From Chloroflexota bacterium (GTDB lineage: Bacteria > Chloroflexota > Limnocylindria > Limnocylindrales > CSP1-4), in assembly GCA_003171255.1 (NCBI GenBank), contig PMYK01000040.1, positions 1 to 35,303 on the forward strand: a DNA stretch of 35,303 bases, read 5' to 3'. Positions 5,101 to 13,704 of the stretch are shown in pieces. The translations under genes and the position numbers were made by a program. The notes beneath the pieces are model-generated. The model ran no database searches. It was not told the origin of the DNA and saw nothing but the letters and a program-made list of their open reading frames with translations. Within the stretch, counting starts at the first letter, position 1. Each line of letters begins with the position of its first letter.

Positions 5101-6890
5101 CAGAAAGGGATCTTCCCGGGCACGCCCGGCGCCGGCGAGACCACCACTCGATCGGGCCTGATCTCCTCGATCCGCCAGCTCGTCGCCCCGAGCGCGATCA
5201 CCTCGCCGACGCGGGCCTCATAGACCATCTCCTCGTCGAGCTCCCCGACGCGCCGGCCGGGCGTACCGGCCTCGCCGACGAGGAACACCGGGTAGAGCCC
5301 GCGGTCCGGGATCGTGCCGCCGCTCGTGATCGCCACGGTCCGAGCGTCGCGCCGCCCCGCAACGACCCCCGTCTCACGGTCCCACACGACTCGCGCCTTC
5401 AGATCGGCGAACTCGTCGGAGGGGTACGCGCCGGCAAGCATGCCGAGCACGGCCTCGAACGCGTCGCGCGTCAGGCTCTCGTATGGGGCGGCCCGTCGCA
5501 CCGTCTCGAACAACTCGTCCGCGGCCCAGGATTCGCGGACCGTCATGGCCACGATCTGCTGGGCCAGCACGTCGAGCGGGTTGCGCGGCAGCTTTGTCTC
5601 TTCGATCGCGCCCTGGTGCATGCGCGCGGTGACAACCGCGGTTTCGAGCAGGTCGCCGCGGTACTTGGGGAAGAAGACGCCGCGGCTCGGCTCGCCGACC
5701 TGATGGCCGGCCCGACCGACGCGCTGCAGCCCGCTGGCGACGCTGGTTGGTGACTCGACCTGGATTACCAGATCGACGGCGCCCATGTCTATGCCGAGCT
5801 CGAGCGAGCTGGTGGCGACGATGGCCGGCAGCCGGCCGGCCTTGAGCGCCTCCTCGATCTGGACGCGCTGCTCGCGGGCGAGCGATCCATGGTGGGCCCG
5901 GACGAGCTCCTCGCCCGCCAGCTCGTTGAGCTTGTTGGCCAGCCGCTCGGCCAGCCGGCGCGAGTTGCAGAAGATGATGGTGGAGTGGTGCTCGCGGATC
6001 AGCTCGAGGATGCGCGGGTGGATCGCCGGCCAGATGCTGTGGCGCGCCTCCGGGCCGCCGACGGGGCCGCCGGGCTGCTCATCGGGCGGCAGCAGCTCGC
6101 CGAGCTTGCTCATGTCTTCGACCGGGACCCGGACCGACAGCTCGAGCACCTTGCGCGAGCCGGCATCGACTATCTGGACGTCCCGGGACTCCCCTGCCCT
6201 GCCGGGCCCGATACCGCCGAGGAAGCGGGCGATCGTCTCCACGGGCCGCTGCGTCGCCGACAGCCCGATCCGCTGCGGCGGCCGCACGGCCAGCTTCTCC
6301 AACCGCTCGAGGCTCAGAGCGAGGTGGGCGCCGCGCTTGGTCCCAGCCACGGCGTGGACCTCGTCGATGATCACGTGCTCGACGCCGCGCAGGATCTCGG
6401 ACGCCTGGCTGGTCAGGATCAGATAGAGCGATTCGGGTGTGGTGATGAGGATGTCCGGCGGGTTGCGGACGAGGTGGCGCCGCTCGTCGGCCGGGGTGTC
6501 GCCGGTCCGGACGCCGACTTCGATCCGGGGCGCCGGCTCGCCCAAACGAGCCGCCTCGAGCCCGATCCCCACCAGCGGCGCCCGCAGGTTGCGCTCGACA
6601 TCGTAGATGAGCGCCTTGAGCGGCGAGATGTACAGGACGCGGACGGTCGGCGTCTTCGGCCGCGGCTCGCGGGCCAGGCGGTCGAGAGTCCAGAGGAACG
6701 CGGCCAGGGTCTTGCCACTGCCGGTGGGGGCGTGGATCAGGGTGTGGCGACCGGCCGCGATGCTCGCCCAACCCTCGGCCTGGGATGGCGTCGGCGCCGC
6801 GAAGGCCGAGCGGAACCATGCGGCCACGGCCGGGCTAAAAAGCGCCAGTGCGTCGCCGGTCTCAGGGGCGGAGCGGGTCGAGGCAGCCAC
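2127..6890 (-). CDS. lhr: Full-length Lhr-type superfamily 2 ATP-dependent DNA helicase
   Basis: 1587 aa, slightly longer than E. coli Lhr (about 1540). Motifs in order: Q-motif-like TPSQAEGW near 34-41; Walker A APTGSGKT at 54-61; TPESL near 151; DEVH box at 176-179; SAT at 211-213; then TSSLELGIDMGAVDLVIQVE and GLQRVGRAGHQ as motifs V and VI. After the RecA pair come the winged-helix and beta-barrel region and the long Lhr C-terminal domain. Lhr enzymes are 3'-to-5' ssDNA translocases that unwind RNA:DNA hybrids and act in DNA repair. Two Gly/Ala/Thr-rich low-complexity stretches lie in the last quarter and may be linkers expanded by GC-rich slippage. It is the first gene of the lhr-nei2-small protein operon. 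The start is GTG at 6890 with no ribosome binding site, but TATACT lies 9 nt upstream, so the mRNA may be leaderless. Confidence 0.95.
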   Translation of the reverse strand: MAASTRSAPETGDALALFSPAVAAWFRSAFAAPTPSQAEGWASIAAGRHTLIHAPTGSGKTLAAFLWTLDRLAREPRPKTPTVRVLYISPLKALIYDVERNLRAPLVGIGLEAARLGEPAPRIEVGVRTGDTPADERRHLVRNPPDILITTPESLYLILTSQASEILRGVEHVIIDEVHAVAGTKRGAHLALSLERLEKLAVRPPQRIGLSATQRPVETIARFLGGIGPGRAGESRDVQIVDAGSRKVLELSVRVPVEDMSKLGELLPPDEQPGGPVGGPEARHSIWPAIHPRILELIREHHSTIIFCNSRRLAERLANKLNELAGEELVRAHHGSLAREQRVQIEEALKAGRLPAIVATSSLELGIDMGAVDLVIQVESPTSVASGLQRVGRAGHQVGEPSRGVFFPKYRGDLLETAVVTARMHQGAIEETKLPRNPLDVLAQQIVAMTVRESWAADELFETVRRAAPYESLTRDAFEAVLGMLAGAYPSDEFADLKARVVWDRETGVVAGRRDARTVAITSGGTIPDRGLYPVFLVGEAGTPGRRVGELDEEMVYEARVGEVIALGATSWRIEEIRPDRVVVSPAPGVPGKIPFWHGDGLGRPIELGRALGEFVRELEVDLSGGERGLARARRRLLENHDLDELAADNVLGYLAEEREVAGSLPTDRRIVVERFRDELGDWRIVILTPFGGRIHAPWAMAIEARLEERLGQGAQTIWSDDGIAIRLPEGEAATGGALRDLLFPSAEEVEDLVVGRLGSSAMFAARFRENAARALLLPRRRPGSRTPLWQQRQRSAGLLAVASRYGSFPIIVETYRECLADLFDLPALREVLGGVARREIEVRDVETAVASPFAGSLLFDYLAAYMYEGDAPLAERRAGALALDRELLRELLGQEELRDLIDPEALADLELALQALLPERAARSADALHDLLRRLGDLTVDEVAARIVEPLAAGEWLAVLEGSRRAIALRIAGEERWIAIEDAARYRDALGVALLVGVPAAFLTSVPDALAGLVARWGRSHGPFHPSEPARRWAVPAARIEEALEGLLEAGAILLGEFRPGGMAREWCDPDVLRQLRRRSLARLRREVEPVEQVVLARFLLAWQGVRPIGEGAVTAPRGEAALERLAELVDQLAGVPIPASVLERDVLPARIAGYQPRLLDELGALGEVAWVGAGGLGRDDGRIVLYRPGRRVVLDPTSGEAAAPGAELHERIRERLRQRGASFYRDLQSAAGSASERDVLDALWDLVWAGELTNDTFAPLRALRWRRPSGERRPRPGRLTLSPPEAAGRWSLVDGSGAGGDAGAGSGTVPGATRATQRLHSLATALLERHGVLTREAVSAEDVAGGFSAVYPVLRAMEESGRIRRGYFVDGLGAAQFALPGAVDRLRAMREPGASATASATAVGAATTGGAAAANATATAAGPTVHLLAAADPANPYGAALAWPRRGAADRRPLQRAAGAYVVLFDGAAALYLERGGHSLQTLPALDDPVVAGPAFAALRALVEDGRFRELVVSRVDGEAVAASPWRTQMEQAGFVAGYRGHVLRPQNRRVIAAGRGLPVDTAAADDYWRRGRSGLGGPGAGPRR

Positions 6891-6899
6891 GAGGCGCCC

Positions 6900-6905
6900 A
6901 GTATA
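6900..6905 (-). promoter_or_regulatory. -10 box of the lhr promoter (near-leaderless)
   Basis: On the minus strand this reads TATACT, followed by 9 nt and the GTG start of lhr. Transcription would begin within a few bases of the start codon. No good -35 box is visible. Confidence 0.5.
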
Positions 6906-6987
6906 TGCGGGCAGCCACGATTAGACCATCCGTTCTACGAGCGGGAGCGCGCCGGGAAACGAACCCCTGGACCGGCCGAAAGGGGGC

Positions 6988-7023
6988 TACGATCCTCGAC
7001 GACGCTTGACGCAGCCGAGGAGG
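6988..7023 (+). promoter_or_regulatory. -10 box and ribosome binding site for the 7034 gene
   Basis: TACGAT at 6988-6993 is a plausible -10 box. GAGGAGG at 7017-7023 lies 10 nt before the GTG at 7034 and decides that start. The promoter would be divergent from that of lhr. Confidence 0.45.
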
Positions 7024-7033
7024 CAACAGCGCC

Positions 7034-7819
7034 GTGCAAAAGGAGTGGCCGTTCGACGGCCTTCGAGGGGTAGTTCGGATGTGGAGCGACCCGGCGCTCG
7101 GGGCCGGGGCGCTGGAGAGATGGATGACCGGCCGGCCACCCGGTAGCGTTGCCATGCTATCGCGCGTCGACTCGCGACCCGGCAGCGGCGAGCCCACGGA
7201 GCCGGACCCAACACCACCGAGTCCTCGTGACCGGATTGTGCGGTTCTGGGTTGAGGGTGGAGAGCGCTGGAGAATCGAGCTTGGGACAGGCGGCGCCGAT
7301 GGGACCTTTGTTTCCGACCACGGCCAATGGCTCCACTGGACCGGATCGACCGCCGTGTCGGGAGAATCGCCGAGCCACCAGCCTCCACCCGGCCTGCCCG
7401 GCGAGGTGCATGCGATGCTCGACCCCGACGAATTGCTGTCGGAGGTGGAGGTGACGCCGACCGGGCGGGTCGTGATCGCCGGACGCGACGCGAGCGGGAT
7501 GATGGCGACGCCCCGCGACCCCGATCACATACTGTGGCCCGGTGCGCAGGAGTTGGGGCTGGCGCTCGACGACCAGATCCGCCTCCTGCTTCGTCTGGAG
7601 CTGCTATTCGAAGGTAAGGCGTTCCACCGACTCGAGTTCGTCGAGCTCGAACTGGACCCGGAGCTTCCGGACGACCTGTTCCGCCTCGATCTGCCCCCGG
7701 GCGTGCCCGTGTTGCGGACTCCGCCGCCGGGTGAACTGGGCCGGGGCAGGCGACCGCCGCGACCCGAGGGTTGGCCCAGGGTCGGCTGGCGGGGAATACA
7801 TCTCCGCTGGAAGAAATAG
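7034..7819 (+). CDS. Hypothetical protein, possibly LolA/RseB-like fold
   Basis: 261 aa, GTG start chosen because GAGGAGG lies 10 nt upstream. There is no signal peptide or membrane segment. A Pro-rich stretch around 50-65 separates a short N-terminal part from a beta-rich body with RIVRFWVEGGERWRIE, DGTFVSDHGQWLHW, VEVTPTGRVVIAGRDASG and FEGKAFHRLEFVELELD. The alternation of long strands, with repeated ways of handling W, D and G, recalls the LolA/RseB half-barrel seen in sigma-factor regulators and lipoprotein carriers, but I cannot confirm the family by eye. The C-terminus is basic (RGIHLRWKK). Its stop is one base before a possible ATG for the following BNR-repeat protein, so the two are probably co-transcribed and coupled. 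Confidence 0.75.
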   Translation: MQKEWPFDGLRGVVRMWSDPALGAGALERWMTGRPPGSVAMLSRVDSRPGSGEPTEPDPTPPSPRDRIVRFWVEGGERWRIELGTGGADGTFVSDHGQWLHWTGSTAVSGESPSHQPPPGLPGEVHAMLDPDELLSEVEVTPTGRVVIAGRDASGMMATPRDPDHILWPGAQELGLALDDQIRLLLRLELLFEGKAFHRLEFVELELDPELPDDLFRLDLPPGVPVLRTPPPGELGRGRRPPRPEGWPRVGWRGIHLRWKK

Positions 7820-7856
7820 CATGTTCGATGATCGACGCCAATTGGAGGGCATCAAC

Positions 7857-9155
7857 GTGGCTGATAGAGACAGGCGACCCCGTCGGGCATCGAGGCCGGA
7901 CGCATCGCGTGGACCGTTGCGAGTGGGCATTGCTGTGCTGGCCACGGGTCTCTTGATAGTCGCAGTCGTCGCCCTGCGTGCGGTCGGGCCATTCGCCTCG
8001 GCGGGTGCGACGTCTTCGCCAACCGCGGCCATGCCATCGGCGGCCGTCGCGGTCGCGACACCGAGCACCCCCGGCTCTTCGGAGGTCCCGTCCATCCAGT
8101 CGCCGCCTCCGACGCAGGCTCCCTCGGCCCCCCCTTTCACCACGTCGGGTGTCACGTCGAGCTGGCAGGGCTTCACCTGGAGCCAGCTCGCCGCCGGCAA
8201 CCCCCTTGTGGCGGCCGACCCCGGCATCCAGATGCTTCAGTGGAGCCGAGGGTTCGTGGTCTACGGGACGACGGGTGGCGGAGCCAAGGCATTCGTCTGG
8301 ACCTCTTCGGACGGCCAAACGTGGACCCAGGTCACCTCGATAACGGTCCAACACGTGCTACTGGCGGCCTCGCCGGCCGGCCTCGTGGCCATCGGCGGCG
8401 ATCCTACCCAGGACGCCGGCTCGCAGAAGGTCTGGACCAGCTCGGACGGGATCAAGTGGTCCGACGCCGGGTCGCCGACGGGACTTGGATTCCTGGACTC
8501 GATCGCCGGTACCTCGTCGGGTCTGGTCGCGGTCGAGCACACAGTCACCGGTTCCGGAAAGCTCGCCACGTCGCAGTACGGAGTCGCCCATTCGAATGAC
8601 GGCATCGCCTGGACGTCGGTGGCAGGCGCGCCGGCGTTGTCGGACGAGGTGATCGTCCCGCGCGTCCAGTCGGGCAGCGGTCGCTACTTCCTGCTCGGCG
8701 CTCCCACTGCGTTGAGCGGCAAGGGCGGCGGGGGTGACCTGTGGTGGTCCGATGACGGACAGAAGTGGACCACCGTCGAGTTGCCTTTGTACCCCGCAAG
8801 TCTGGATTTCGGGCGAGACGGGATCGTCCTCCACACCAGCGCGATGTCGGCTCCCGGCGCCGCGGGCATCGAGCTGTCGACCGACGGTGGTAAGACCTGG
8901 CAGGCTGACAGCAAGTTCGGACCGCTTGGCGCCACGACATGCGGGATCGGCGAATGCAGCGCCGGCCCCGACGGAGTGATCGAGTCGAACGGCACGATCT
9001 TCCTCGCGGTCAAGAGCGACGGCCACGCCTGGACCTCGTATGACGGGCGCACCTGGATGTCGATCTCGTGGACCGGCCCAGCCTCAGGGACAGAGCCGAA
9101 CCTGGTCATGCCGCGGGGCGTGGTCGTTGGAAAATCCTACGGGGCCGCCCAATAG
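7857..9155 (+). CDS. Membrane-anchored BNR/Asp-box repeat protein
   Basis: 432 aa from GTG 7857, which has a perfect GGAGGG 7 nt upstream. An ATG at 7821, one base after the previous stop, would add 12 residues and cannot be excluded. A basic N-terminus is followed by one hydrophobic segment (GIAVLATGLLIVAVVALRAV), so the protein is anchored or secreted with the bulk outside. A Pro/Ser/Thr linker follows. At least five copies of the Asp-box pattern S/T-x-D-G-x-x-W then occur: SSDGQTW, SSDGIKW, SDDGQKW, STDGGKTW and SYDGRTW, plus SNDGIAW. These motifs mark blades of a beta-propeller, as in sialidases and photosystem assembly factors. No sialidase catalytic triad is evident, so a binding or scaffold role is more likely. 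Substrate unknown. Confidence 0.85.
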   Translation: MADRDRRPRRASRPDASRGPLRVGIAVLATGLLIVAVVALRAVGPFASAGATSSPTAAMPSAAVAVATPSTPGSSEVPSIQSPPPTQAPSAPPFTTSGVTSSWQGFTWSQLAAGNPLVAADPGIQMLQWSRGFVVYGTTGGGAKAFVWTSSDGQTWTQVTSITVQHVLLAASPAGLVAIGGDPTQDAGSQKVWTSSDGIKWSDAGSPTGLGFLDSIAGTSSGLVAVEHTVTGSGKLATSQYGVAHSNDGIAWTSVAGAPALSDEVIVPRVQSGSGRYFLLGAPTALSGKGGGGDLWWSDDGQKWTTVELPLYPASLDFGRDGIVLHTSAMSAPGAAGIELSTDGGKTWQADSKFGPLGATTCGIGECSAGPDGVIESNGTIFLAVKSDGHAWTSYDGRTWMSISWTGPASGTEPNLVMPRGVVVGKSYGAAQ

Positions 9156-9201
9156 CGCCGCGAGCGCTTCGGGTCTCTCAGACACAGGAAGGACCACGAC
9201 A

Positions 9202-9906
9202 ATGGATCTCGACGGCGCGGTCGTCATCGTCACCGGGGCCTCGTCAGGCATCGGCGCCGCCACTGCCCGACTCGCGGCCGGACGCGGGGCGAAGGTTGTC
9301 CTGGCCGCCCGCCGCGCCGATCGAATCGAGGCGCTGGCGGCCGAGTTGCCGGAGGCGCTCGCCGTGTCGACGGATCTGCGCGACCCGGCTCAGATAGCCG
9401 GCCTGGTGAAGGCAACGCTCGATCGATTCGGACGCGTCGACGTGCTCGTCAACAACGCCGGCCAGGGCCTCCACGTCCCGGTCGAGCAGATCCAGCTCGA
9501 AGACCTGCGATCCGTTACGGAGCTCAACTTCTACGCCCCGCTCCTGGCCATGCAGGCGGTCATTCCGGCGATGCGCAAGCAGGGCGCCGGCGCGATCGTG
9601 AACGTCAGCTCCATGACCTCGCGCATGGTGCTGCCGGGAGTCGGCGGCTACTCGGCCACGAAGTCGGCACTCAACATGCTCTCCGGGGTTGCCCGCCGCG
9701 AGCTCGCGCCCGACGGCATCGTGGTGTCGCTCGTCTACCCGTCCGTGACCGCCACGGAGTTCCACCAGTCGCTGGCCGCGGGTGGCCGCGTCGGCGGCGG
9801 CAGGTCGCCGGTCAAGCCTCACACGGCGGAATCTGTGGCCGAGGCGATCCTGGGCGTCATCGCGTCCGGCGAGGAAGAGGTCCTCCTCACGCAGGACTGG
9901 GGCTAA
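9202..9906 (+). CDS. Short-chain dehydrogenase/reductase (SDR)
   Basis: 234 aa, ATG at 9202 with aggaagga about 8 nt upstream. The Rossmann cofactor motif TGASSGIG lies at 11-18; AARR at 36-39 after strand 2, with basic residues, suggests NADP(H) preference. NNAG is at 84-87. The catalytic set is complete: N109 region (ELNFYAP), S137 (NVSSMTS), Y150 and K154 (YSATK). This is a classical SDR of normal length acting in the cytosol. The C-terminal half (VVSLVYPSVTATEFHQSL) matches the DltE/YqjQ-like oxidoreductases of broad or unknown substrate. The gene lies 46 nt after the BNR gene; no pathway partner is adjacent, so the substrate cannot be named. Confidence 0.93.
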   Translation: MDLDGAVVIVTGASSGIGAATARLAAGRGAKVVLAARRADRIEALAAELPEALAVSTDLRDPAQIAGLVKATLDRFGRVDVLVNNAGQGLHVPVEQIQLEDLRSVTELNFYAPLLAMQAVIPAMRKQGAGAIVNVSSMTSRMVLPGVGGYSATKSALNMLSGVARRELAPDGIVVSLVYPSVTATEFHQSLAAGGRVGGGRSPVKPHTAESVAEAILGVIASGEEEVLLTQDWG

Positions 9907-9942
9907 AGCCTGGTCGGAGTCACTCGGGGCTCAGCCGCTGCG

Positions 9943-9970
9943 TGGTCGGGGCGAGAGGATTTGAACCTCC
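9943..9970 (-). pseudogene. 3' end of a tRNA gene (T-arm, acceptor strand, CCA), probably tRNA-Pro
   Basis: Read on the minus strand, GGAGG (9970-9966), loop TTCAAAT (9965-9959) and CCTCT (9958-9954) form a proper 5-bp/7-nt T-arm. It is followed by CGCCCCG (9953-9947), discriminator A and CCA. The CGCCCCG-A-CCA end is typical of tRNA-Pro. The matching 5' acceptor strand CGGGGCG, the D-arm and the anticodon arm are not found within the next 120 nt. A tRNA 3' end without its 5' half is the usual footprint of an attachment site left by an integrative element. Confidence 0.6.
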
Positions 9971-10000
9971 GATCACGCAGCCAACGGATGAGACCACAAA

Positions 10001-10030
10001 GAGACGGCGAGCCTTGCGGCCCGCCGTCTC
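10001..10030 (-). terminator. Strong hairpin between SDR and doxX
   Basis: GAGACGGCG (10001-10009) pairs perfectly with CGCCGTCTC (10022-10030) around a 12-nt loop. On the minus strand the stem is followed by TTTG, so it probably terminates the DoxX gene and may also stop plus-strand reads from the SDR gene. Confidence 0.55.
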
Positions 10031-10089
10031 GAGGTGCAGGGGGAAAAGTGTGAGGTAACTCTCCCTGCCTCTGGTCTTCGGAAGAAGCG

Positions 10090-10602
10090 TTATCCGAGCG
10101 CGTACTTGACGACCGGGATGCGCTGCGTGATCGCGAGCTTGGCCACTGCCGTGTCGAGGGCGTAGGCCCCGGCACCGACGAAGGCGATCGTACCGGCGAC
10201 GACGCCGTACATGAGCTGCTCGTTGATCGGGCCGGTCGCGAAGCTCCAGTTGGCCACATAGAAGAGAGCCATCATCACGGCGCCGGCGAGACCGGCGAAG
10301 CGAGTCGCCAGGCCGAGGATCAGCGCGATGCCGACGGCGCACTCACCGAAGACGACGAGCGTGTCGATGAGGGACATGAGACCGGCGTTGCCGGCGAGAG
10401 AGACCCAGAAGGGGTGAGTGGGATTGACGACCGCCTTGGGGTCGCTGCCCAGCCACGCTCCGGTGGTCGCGAACTTGAGGAAGCCGGCCGCCGTGAAGGG
10501 CGTACCGCTGGCCCACATGAAGAACTTGTCGAGGCCGGCAAAGAGGAAGCCGAACCCTACGACTGCCCTTAGAACGAAGATGCCGCGATCCTTCGTTTCC
10601 AC
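10090..10602 (-). CDS. DoxX-family integral membrane protein
   Basis: 170 aa from GTG 10602, chosen because AGGGA lies 6 nt upstream; a GTG at 10617 would add five residues. The sequence shows the DoxX/DoxD layout: a first helix RGIFVLRAVVGFGFLFAGL followed by KFFMW, an extracytoplasmic loop, then three more hydrophobic helices (LIDTLVVFGECAVGIALILG, FAGLAGAVMMALFYVANW, YGVVAGTIAFVGAGAYALD). DoxX-like proteins sit in the membrane, and some are subunits of thiosulfate:quinone oxidoreductase or work with redox partners; no such partner is adjacent. The upstream region is unusually AT-rich and carries two 40-bp repeats, so regulated expression is likely. Confidence 0.88.
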   Translation of the reverse strand: METKDRGIFVLRAVVGFGFLFAGLDKFFMWASGTPFTAAGFLKFATTGAWLGSDPKAVVNPTHPFWVSLAGNAGLMSLIDTLVVFGECAVGIALILGLATRFAGLAGAVMMALFYVANWSFATGPINEQLMYGVVAGTIAFVGAGAYALDTAVAKLAITQRIPVVKYALG

Positions 10603-10617
10603 TGCTATTCCCTGCAC

Positions 10618-10926
10618 CTTTCACTGCCGGTCTGCCATCCCGGGTTATCCCGGGCGCCAGACCCATCAAGTCGATGGCTCGAATGTATAGGACGTAAGTG
10701 TTTAGAAGGGGTGCCGTTGGTCCCAAACGGAGTGGGCCAGTCGGACTCTAAATACCATTGGAGTCAGTGTTTGTTGTTTAGGGCAAGCTGTGGGCGATGA
10801 TCGGTAATGTATATGAGATTAGTTAGCATTCGCCCGAAGTGAGGCGTCGGCGATGCTCGGTAACGTATATGCGCTTAGTTAACATTCGCGCTCACAGAGA
10901 ACCCGACGACTACGACGGGCCGTCCA
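10618..10926. other. AT-rich intergenic region upstream of doxX
   Basis: 309 nt with no supportable gene. It holds a minus-strand TATACA (about 10683-10688) that could be the doxX -10 box, an imperfect CCGTT/AACGG hairpin near 10713-10730, a GACTC/GAGTC pair near 10744-10765, and the two 40-bp direct repeats listed separately. Its base composition is clearly lower in GC than its surroundings. Confidence 0.5.
10794..10889. repeat. Two 40-bp AT-rich direct repeats
   Basis: Copies at 10794-10833 and 10850-10889 match at 35 of 40 positions, with start points 56 bp apart. Both run from gcgatg to cattcgc, so the unit ends form a partial inverted pair, and both carry gtatatg and tagtta cores. The spacing and AT-richness suggest a tandem binding site. 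They lie about 190 nt upstream of doxX. Confidence 0.7.
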
Positions 10927-12759
10927 TCAGCTGGATGCGAGCCAGCCCTGGATGCGGCCGCGGAGGTCTGAATGGGCACCGGGCGGGAGGCGGACGCCGA
11001 CCCGGGCGTCAGGGTCTACGGCCGAAACGCGGGAGGGAGCCGCGGTCACCGCGAAGCCTGCGCTGGTGAGGAGCCGCTCGGCCACTCCCCGGCGCACCGC
11101 CCGGGGCAGCGGATCCAGCGGGTCGCGCTCGGCGACGGCGTGAAGCGCGACCAGCGCGCGGCCCCGGCGGTCCTGCTCGTCGACGAGGGCCCTCAGCATT
11201 GCCGTGGCCAGGCCTCGGCGCCGCCACTCCGGGGCCACGCCCAGCGCCACGAGCCGGTCCACGCCGTCGAGTGGCGCGGGCATCGGCACCGCCAGAGCAA
11301 TGCCCACCAGCCACTCCCCGTTGACGGCGCCGGCGGCCACGCCGCTTTCTCGGAGCGCCGCTTGGAGCAGGGCGGCCCCGACTCGCGCATCGGCCGGGGC
11401 GATGACCCGAGCCGCGACGCGCAGGCGATCGAGCATCTCGAGCGTGAGGGGCGAAACCACGGTCGGCGCGGCCCGCGGCGGCTGGCCGCTCGCCACTCCC
11501 GACCTCGCCACTCCCGACCCGGCCGGCGGCGCTTCTGCTGCCGGCGCTGCGCTGGACGGACTGACCGGCGCGGCCTCGTCGAAGCGCCACCAACCTCGAT
11601 CTTCGGCAACGCTCAGCAGGGCCGGCACCATGACCGATCGAACAAGTTCGACCGTTCGTCCGGCCTTCTCGGCCGCGGCCGGGCTGACGGATCGGGGCGT
11701 CGCCAGGCCTGGCGCGTCGTCAAAGGCCTCGGGCAGCGGGGCGTCGTCCCAGCGAGCGGCGTCGCCTTCCCAGCGCGCTCGCCAGTCCTCCGGCAGCCTC
11801 GACGGCGTCTCCCGGTGCGCGCCTGCCAGCCAGGTCAGCGCCCAGACCCGCGGCACGACGCGGTAGACGGCATAGCCGCCGCCGCCCGTCGCGAGCCACC
11901 GCCCGCCGGCATATCGATGCGCGATCCGATCGACCAGCCGGGCCGCCTCGCCCATCGCCGTTGTCGTCAGCGCCAGGTGCGCCAGGGGATCCCAGACGTG
12001 GCCGTCCGCGCCGTGCTGGCTGACCACGATGTCGGGCCCGAAGGCAGCGGCCAGAGGCGGAACCACGGCCCGCACCGCCGCGAGCCACGCATCGGGACCC
12101 GTGAGCGGCTCGAGCGGCACATTGACCGAGGTCCCCGCCGCGCTCCCCTCCCCTATCTCGCCGACGAACCCCGTCCCAGGGAAGAGCGCCCGGCCCGACT
12201 CGTGGAACGAGATCGTCATGACGCCCGGATCCGTGTAGTGCAGCGCCTGGACGCCGTCGCCGTGATGGACGTCGAGGTCGACGTAGATGACGCGCAGCCC
12301 ATCGCGTCGGGCTCGGGCGATGGCCAGGGCCACGTCGTTGTAGACGCAGAAGCCGCTCGCCCGCGACCGCATGGCGTGGTGCAGTCCGCCGCCCGGCTGA
12401 TAGGCATGCTCCACGTCGCCGCGCAGGATCGCCTCGACGGCCCGGATCGATCCGCCCGCGACCGTCGCCGCCGCCTCATGCATGCCTGCGAAGGCCGGAT
12501 CGTCGCCCGGTCCGATGCCGGCCTCGGGCGGCCCACCCGGGTCGGCGGAGAAGCGGCGCACCGTGGCGATGTAGTCGGCCGTGTGAAGCCACTCCAGCTC
12601 GTCGATCGCCGCGGGTTCGGGCGCGAGACCGGGCTCAGCCCCGACGGCGCGCAGCAGCTCGATCCCCGGCCCGAAACGCCTGGGGCTGAGCGGGTGCCGC
12701 GGCCCGAAGTCGTACGTCAGCGAACGCGGCCCGTAAACCAGGAGCGGACCCTCAACCAT
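10927..12759 (-). CDS. AcuC-type deacetylase fused to a GNAT acetyltransferase
   Basis: 610 aa, ATG start at 12759. Residues 1-390 are a class I histone-deacetylase-like enzyme: RHPLSPRR near 21-28, HH at 127-128 (GGGLHHAM), the zinc site D163 and H165 (YVDLDVHHGDGV), D252 (SQHGADGH) and catalytic Y296 (GGGGY). All expected catalytic residues are present. A Pro/Ala/Ser linker at about 395-433 leads to a GNAT domain (about 445-600) with the acetyl-CoA motif LVALGVAPEWRRRGLATAM at 503-521. In Bacillus, AcuC and the acetyltransferase AcuA are separate proteins that switch acetyl-CoA synthetase off and on; here both activities are joined in one chain. The target is not adjacent and is unknown. 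The linker DNA carries a 15-bp direct repeat, suggesting an expanded hinge. Confidence 0.9.
   Translation of the reverse strand: MVEGPLLVYGPRSLTYDFGPRHPLSPRRFGPGIELLRAVGAEPGLAPEPAAIDELEWLHTADYIATVRRFSADPGGPPEAGIGPGDDPAFAGMHEAAATVAGGSIRAVEAILRGDVEHAYQPGGGLHHAMRSRASGFCVYNDVALAIARARRDGLRVIYVDLDVHHGDGVQALHYTDPGVMTISFHESGRALFPGTGFVGEIGEGSAAGTSVNVPLEPLTGPDAWLAAVRAVVPPLAAAFGPDIVVSQHGADGHVWDPLAHLALTTTAMGEAARLVDRIAHRYAGGRWLATGGGGYAVYRVVPRVWALTWLAGAHRETPSRLPEDWRARWEGDAARWDDAPLPEAFDDAPGLATPRSVSPAAAEKAGRTVELVRSVMVPALLSVAEDRGWWRFDEAAPVSPSSAAPAAEAPPAGSGVARSGVASGQPPRAAPTVVSPLTLEMLDRLRVAARVIAPADARVGAALLQAALRESGVAAGAVNGEWLVGIALAVPMPAPLDGVDRLVALGVAPEWRRRGLATAMLRALVDEQDRRGRALVALHAVAERDPLDPLPRAVRRGVAERLLTSAGFAVTAAPSRVSAVDPDARVGVRLPPGAHSDLRGRIQGWLASS
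11489..11518. repeat. 15-bp perfect direct repeat inside the fusion linker
   Basis: CTCGCCACTCCCGAC occurs twice in tandem (11489-11503, 11504-11518) and codes for the repeated SGVA of the linker at about residues 416-424. Its cgccactc core is also the core of the intergenic satellite at 22.16-22.30 kb. Confidence 0.8.
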
Positions 12760-12855: not shown

Positions 12856-12955
12856 GAAACCGGGCCAATCTCCGCTCATCTTCACCGTGGGTGATGCTAT
12901 GGCACCCAACCGGCCGAATCCCCGCTCATCTTCGCGGGGGGCGATATTGCGGAAC
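12856..12955. repeat. Two imperfect 50-bp tandem repeats with a hairpin
   Basis: Copies at 12856-12905 and 12906-12955 agree at about 36 of 50 positions and share the exact core CCGCTCATCTTC. In the second copy CCCCGC (12920-12925) and GCGGGG (12934-12939) form a perfect 6-bp hairpin with loop TCATCTTC. The rest of the 417-nt gap between 12760 and 13176 shows no convincing gene. The function of the repeats is unknown. Confidence 0.6.
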
Positions 12956-13176: not shown

Positions 13177-13704
13177 ATGACCGCGCGCCAAACCACGTTC
13201 CTCATCCGCCCCGTTCGTCCCGAGGAGTACGAGGCTCTCGGCGAGCTGATCGTCGCTGCCTACCACTCCCTGCCCGACGTGAGGAACCACCAGGAGAGCT
13301 ACGACCGCCGGCTTCGCGACGTGACCACGCGCACCGAGGTTTCCTCCGTTCTGGTCGCCGTCGGCCCCGGCGTCGAGCTGCTCGGCGGCGTGACCTACGT
13401 CCGCGGCTCCGACGACCCCTACTCCGAAGGGCTGCGCGAGGGCGAGGCCGGCATGCGAATGCTCGCCGTCCATCCGGCAAGACAGCGCCATGGGATCGGT
13501 CGAGCGCTGACGCAAGCCTGTCTGGAACGAGCCCACGCAGCCGGACGGAAGCGCCTGGTCCTGCACACGGGCTCGTGGATGCCGGGCGCGATCCGCCTCT
13601 ACGAGCGAATGGGTTTCGTTCGCAGACCAGACATCGACTTCACTCCGGCGCCCGGAATCGACCTGATCGCCTACTCGTTCGAGCTGAGAGCAGTGACCGA
13701 GTAG
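13177..13704 (+). CDS. GNAT-family N-acetyltransferase
   Basis: 175 aa, ATG at 13177. The GNAT fold is clear: FLIRPVRPEEYEALGELI as strand 1 and helix 1, then VLVAVG and GVTYVRG, followed by motif A MRMLAVHPARQRHGIGRALT, in which Q-R-H-G-I-G forms the acetyl-CoA pyrophosphate loop, and the C-terminal IRLYERMGFVRR (motif B). It transfers an acyl group from acyl-CoA to an amine in the cytosol; the substrate cannot be read from sequence. It ends 17 nt before the convergent MFS gene. The TAnnnT box 6 nt before the ATG suggests a leaderless transcript. Confidence 0.92.
   Translation: MTARQTTFLIRPVRPEEYEALGELIVAAYHSLPDVRNHQESYDRRLRDVTTRTEVSSVLVAVGPGVELLGGVTYVRGSDDPYSEGLREGEAGMRMLAVHPARQRHGIGRALTQACLERAHAAGRKRLVLHTGSWMPGAIRLYERMGFVRRPDIDFTPAPGIDLIAYSFELRAVTE

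Follow-up and report, generated by a model that had tools for sequence, protein, structure and literature searches.

A Chloroflexota gene joining an AcuC-type deacetylase to a GNAT domain with a predicted AcuA-like fold

The balance between AcuA and AcuC is a question of current interest in research on bacterial acetylation. In Bacillus subtilis, AcuA, AcuC, and AcuB, which belong to the acu operon and act on AcsA, are separate proteins, whereas at the locus described here an AcuC-type deacetylase and a GNAT domain form one chain. For B. subtilis AcuA, sections of PMC11255334 describe E102 as the general base and W140 as the cofactor-stacking tryptophan, with E102 mutants and the W140A mutant both abolishing AcsA acetylation, and a salt bridge between R108 and D141 that holds acetyl-CoA in place. 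On the deacetylase side, AcuB was reported in 2026 to inhibit AcuC (parts of PMC13121692 and PMC13039410), and for the Bacilli the former describes, in part of its text, an AcuC restrained by AcuB as a separate energy sensor. Our search of openly licensed papers found no description of an AcuC-AcuA or AcuC-GNAT fusion, and none is mentioned in the examined sections of PMC11532494 (a 2024 survey of bacterial deacylases), PMC11255334, PMC11910552, PMC13039410, and PMC13121692.

The gene is located on the minus strand at positions 10927 to 12759 of the window, the whole 35,303-nucleotide stretch of DNA that was analysed; the first-pass annotation had named no strand. It is one open frame with an ATG start, encoding 610 amino acids plus the stop. 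The Hist_deacetyl (AcuC) domain (residues 22 to 309, positions 11833 to 12696, minus strand), with a Pfam E value of 1.5e-76, is followed on the same strand by an AcuC C-terminal tail (residues 310 to 392, positions 11584 to 11832), which was delimited by alignment and is present in unfused relatives too, then by a linker of low pLDDT (residues 393 to 430, positions 11470 to 11583), and finally by the GNAT domain with its predicted AcuA fold (residues 431 to 610, positions 10930 to 11469). The AlphaFold2 model of the full chain has a mean pLDDT of 88.5 and a pTM of 0.91, the sole segment below 50 being residues 400 to 426 in the linker. A Pfam scan of the window protein placed Acetyltransf_1 at residues 474 to 534 (E value 1.5e-5), scoring above its cut-off. 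Imperfect direct repeats, recognized by eye, are present in the two flanking spacers, at about positions 10790 to 10895 and 12870 to 12940.

The proposed union of deacetylase and GNAT in a single polypeptide was borne out by its relatives. From a full-length profile scan, the best 80 of 302 relatives were kept, nearly all of them Chloroflexi/Chloroflexota, including Candidatus Limnocylindrales and Chloroflexi bacterium CSP1-4. Among these best 80 of 302, this GNAT is found behind AcuC in 42, with 41 in one frame and L072 split over two, so the fusion is not an artefact. The one-frame recurrence led us to reject a frameshift or assembly error as its source, and with it falls the objection that relatives might carry two separate genes joined here by such an error. 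The GNAT of L106 is in frame with only the later portion of AcuC, the rest of the deacetylase being in another frame. The "unfused" set (n = 38) includes L119, where AcuC is joined to a canonical AcuA that fell below the search threshold, and the contig-end loci L052, L084, L091, L099, and L115. Across the class, the GNAT profile matches in 48 of 177 genomes, all from one family and representing 17 of 46 genera, and 45 of the 50 matches are in open frames of at least 562 amino acids. Two loci have unusual arrangements: L070 has a second frame (7899 to 8645) with part of the same GNAT just downstream of the fused gene, and in L120 a frame of 1726 amino acids (5953 to 11130) joins an AcuC fragment to the downstream Lhr helicase, by deletion or assembly error.

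Fusions of AcuC to canonical AcuA occur in other Chloroflexota, namely, in L119 and in 26 of the 30 loci L144 to L173. Their deacetylases and those of the window lineage form neighbouring groups within an 83-row clade (SH-aLRT support, 97%), where the half holding the window lineage has 83% support and includes the long-branched Thermaceae row L122. Contig-end, split, and near-duplicate rows and two distant deacetylases were dropped beforehand (18 of 79 rows in the first set and 19 of 65 in the second). On the resulting 107-row deacetylase tree the fusion state needs at least 6 changes, and the tree does not discriminate between one and two fusion origins. An earlier 79-row tree with 4 changes was made without L106 and L120, and contig-end rows and L119 were scored as unfused in it. 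The genome G305 contains two sister AcuC copies (L174 and L194), one being fused to AcuA and the other unfused.

The description of the first half as an AcuC-type deacetylase with its zinc and catalytic residues in place holds. Nine positions, picked as what we take to be the equivalents of HDAC8 residues (D86, H127, H128, G136, D161, D163, H165, D257, and Y296), are invariant in 42 of 42 rows, comprising the window and 41 relatives, with L106 omitted because its AcuC is broken across frames. The same nine are invariant in all 32 rows of AcuC-AcuA fusions, some of which are duplicates, and in unfused rows D86 is kept in 69 of 70 and D257 in 68 of 70, so that two positions are not invariant there. 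The deacetylase is under strong constraint, with a dN/dS of 0.107 (Nei-Gojobori, 66 pairs among the window gene and the nearest fused named loci, of which 11 of 13 were used, L072 and L092 being omitted), and the AcuC tail (residues 310 to 392) has a value of about 0.34. The segments PGGGLHH and GGGGY fit the motifs of the AcuC cluster (cluster 2c) in PMC11532494, part of which describes XGGLHH and (G/A)GGY in place of RPP and XGGY. Judging from the invariant residues, the deacetylase half should be active.

The structure comparison of the predicted GNAT model gives AcuA as the nearest fold, with 180 of 182 residues aligned at an rmsd of 2.1 Å and 13% identity, and on the strength of this fold the GNAT half is probably derived from AcuA. 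For the residues, we used a merged alignment in which 38 domains are window-type and 26 AcuA-type, the latter taken from 22 fused frames and 4 AcuA-only frames (one of these at a contig end), and AcuA numbering was carried over by counting along the AcuA alignment. The acetyl-CoA loop region GVAPEWRRRGLA corresponds to residues 507 to 518 (positions 11206 to 11241, minus strand) and includes the loop R513-R-R-G516-L-A518, whose arginine is found in 38 and whose glycine in 37 of the 38 window-type domains. Judged on residues only, the AcuA pair R108 and D141 (window R513 and D546) is kept in all 64 domains; the AcuA spacing of 33 residues between them is found in only 19 of the 38 window-type domains, and R513 counts for little because it is a generic GNAT loop residue. 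The claim of an intact GNAT domain is thus right for the acetyl-CoA loop but not for the two residues essential for AcuA catalysis. The E102 position (window G507, mapped without gaps from R513) is glycine in 38 of 38 window-type domains and glutamate in 26 of 26 AcuA-type domains, and the W140 position (window R545, where the mapping crosses a loop of varying length) is arginine in all 38 and tryptophan in all 26. An AERD motif (residues 543 to 546, positions 11122 to 11133, minus strand) takes the position of the AcuA WHWD, and its residue 544, at the position of AcuA H139, is glutamate in 35 and aspartate in 3 window-type domains. The AcuA C-terminus enters the CoA site of AcsA, and such a feature was sought in the window protein; AlphaFold2 predicts a helix at the end of the chain (residues 597 to 609), but this end differs among relatives in both its length and its sequence.

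The genes around AcuC, counted by targeted searches, differ between fused and "unfused" loci. A divergent pat-type gene adjoins acuC in 18 of the 38 "unfused" loci and acs follows in 10 (16 and 10 of 33, respectively, without the five contig-end loci), whereas neither is found beside the fused gene in any of the 42 fused loci, 33 of which have at least 3 kb upstream and 34 at least 2.5 kb downstream; the Fisher values, which ignore kinship, are 0.0005 and 6e-6. A divergent pat-acuC-acs cluster is present in the unfused relatives L086, L087, L090, L093, L097, L098, L101, L114, and L116. Three acuC-linked Pat-type proteins that we scanned contain GNAT, CoA-binding, Succ_CoA_lig, and ATP-grasp domains, and the window's genome encodes elsewhere a Pat-type protein with the same four domains, 61% identical to an acuC-linked one. 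A canonical AcuA gave no match in this genome at an E value of 1e-6. Of the loci in the best 80 of 302 relatives, 30 of the 42 fused and 13 of the 38 "unfused" ones have an lhr helicase gene downstream, and conserved neighbours such as this one do not suggest a shared pathway. A second GNAT gene (positions 13177 to 13704, plus strand) is found divergently beside the fused gene, and its homologue flanks 20 of the 42 fused loci; for the 13 nearest ones the figure is 12.

The window's genome encodes two AMP-binding_C proteins, AcsA with the sequence PKTRSGK and an acyl-CoA ligase with PKGGTGK, both showing the GK lysine motif. AMP-binding_C proteins are present in all 21 genomes of the genus, and no sirtuin was found in these 21, the control search giving hits in 10 of 14 known genomes. 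AcsA (TIGR02188, E value of 1e-140 or better) was matched in only 6 of the 16 genus genomes with this GNAT, 5 of them over the curated cut-off, and no match was obtained in the other 10, or in 12 of the 21 genus genomes overall. Outside the genus, all 32 GNAT-bearing genomes have a match, 27 over the curated cut-off. Single gene absences mean little because the genomes are incomplete; the ten GNAT-bearing genus genomes without a match are 73 to 92% complete, which makes ten losses by incompleteness alone unlikely. For the AcsA of the genus (entry G000:C48:12243-14069 and relatives), a separate branch is seen: the sequences from two fused, GNAT-bearing members, L127 and L128, are 54 to 55% identical to four other AcsA of the class, which share 66 to 79% mutually (L126 was excluded, its frame being antisense).

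From these domains, residues, conservation patterns, and the fold match of the model, we infer, with some hesitation, a lysine deacetylase of the AcuC type with an acetyl-CoA-binding domain like AcuA that controls or targets it, and with Pat as the writer. The GNAT half, which retains its fold together with the acetyl-CoA loop and R-D pair but lacks the general base and cofactor-stacking tryptophan, would bind acetyl-CoA but would not acetylate as AcuA does. Since the residues needed by Bacillus AcuA are lost, it may sense acetyl-CoA instead of adding tags, and it could tune the deacetylase to the acetyl-CoA level, or target it, in analogy to AcuB, which as a separate protein tunes AcuC to the energy state in Bacilli. 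Writing would fall to the Pat-type protein that the genome encodes at another locus. The substrates are probably catalytic lysines of acyl-CoA ligases and not AcsA alone, because most congeners keeping this GNAT have no AcsA match; a fusion that is kept without AcsA indicates further substrates besides the textbook one. On the simplest view, an acetyl-CoA-binding fold was retained for control or docking, with writing left to Pat. For the history of the gene, a possible scenario, which we put forward loosely, is that AcuA and AcuC were joined in the Chloroflexota and that in the window lineage, with Pat present, the writer half turned into an acetyl-CoA-sensing pseudo-acetyltransferase controlling the eraser.

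The same residues allow a different and more doubtful explanation, a self-contained writer-eraser whose GNAT is active through a re-wired residue such as E544 and whose two halves both act on acyl-CoA ligases. Many GNATs function with no glutamate where AcuA has its base, and with residue 544 being acidic in all 38 window-type GNATs, another catalytic acid is possible. The retained fold and cofactor loop, the purifying selection on the GNAT core, the AcsA matches in all 32 GNAT-bearing genomes outside the genus (27 over the cut-off), and the fusions of other Chloroflexota, in which AcuC is joined to an AcuA with E102, R108, W140, and D141 kept, agree with such an enzyme. However, every window-type domain lacks two residues that B. 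subtilis AcuA cannot do without, the genome encodes a separate Pat-type protein, and no AcsA match was obtained in 10 of the 16 genus genomes that carry this GNAT. These three observations also leave the earlier suggestion that one chain both acetylates and deacetylates acetyl-CoA synthetase unsupported for the window gene. What survives of the idea of opposing activities in one chain is the AcuA-like fold and the union of AcuC with canonical AcuA in other Chloroflexota; a simple switch acting on AcsA is not supported here.

By sequence, the kinship to AcuA is far less apparent than by fold, as fold comparison alone set AcuA apart from other GNATs, and the HMM, hhalign, and PDB profile searches were nonspecific. 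With the AcuA HMM, the median score was 7.9 bits (best, 24.3) for the window-type GNATs versus 7.1 bits (best, 18.4) for generic GNATs, and a third group of two sequences gave no match. In hhalign, a generic GNAT family scored better (E value of 5.3e-8 over 81 columns) than AcuA (4.8e-7 over 145 columns). The best PDB match by sequence profile is the putative D-alanine acetyltransferase 2r7h (E value of 2.8e-6), ahead of AcuA 2q04 (0.0053), and 34 of the 38 window-type members match Acetyltransf_1 at an E value of 0.01 or better. An ordinary GNAT of this kind might act on an unrelated small amine or a protein N-terminus, the fusion coupling only expression or location. We consider this improbable, since the predicted fold resembles AcuA well above other GNATs and the domain order agrees with that of the AcuC-AcuA fusions in other Chloroflexota, the deacetylases of those fusions grouping adjacent to those of the window lineage.

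The GNAT core has a dN/dS of 0.296 in the same 66-pair set, a weaker but clear constraint with faster change than in the deacetylase. That the GNAT is a decaying leftover without function is very improbable, for although this difference in dN/dS and the relatives that lack the GNAT beside the same lhr gene would fit such decay, it is kept in the 17 genera mentioned above, is confidently folded in the prediction, and has six residues (G507, V508, R513, R545, D546, and P550) that are the same in all 38 window-type domains. Within the gene, constraint is lowest in the linker, with a dN/dS of about 0.74 (56 usable of the 66 pairs), and the alignment shows that its length and sequence differ between relatives. 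The perfect 15-bp repeat noted in its DNA is real and tandem (positions 11489 to 11518, minus strand). Its 15-mer is absent from all 42 fused loci among the best 80 of 302 relatives and thus private to the window gene; in the nearest relative, this spot adjoins unread bases. The repeat therefore says nothing general on the hinge, and the growth of the hinge by slippage, which was proposed from it, is not borne out.

The canonical and altered AcuC-AcuA fusions are matched natural variants. The canonical ones are suited to testing whether one chain writes and erases the same mark, and the altered ones to testing whether a former writer gauges acetyl-CoA for the eraser. If our reading is true, the window protein would be a deacetylase with a built-in acetyl-CoA gauge. 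Compared with the AcuC-AcuA fusions of other Chloroflexota, it has the same domain order, but all 26 aligned rows of AcuA-type domains keep E102, R108, W140, and D141. It differs from the B. subtilis acu system, beyond being a single chain, in the replacement of AcuA E102 and W140 and in the lack of acs in the flanks of the 34 fused loci with at least 2.5 kb downstream. Pat-type acetyltransferases combine a GNAT with ADP-forming CoA-ligase domains, whereas the window protein has no CoA-ligase domain among its Pfam matches up to an E value of 1. Human O-GlcNAcase is likewise an eraser with a GNAT-like domain, described in part of PMC12494797 as a pseudo-histone acetyltransferase; it differs in modification, enzyme fold, and ancestry, so that the likeness is an analogy only. 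Seen against these systems, the window protein is made of known parts in a new arrangement.
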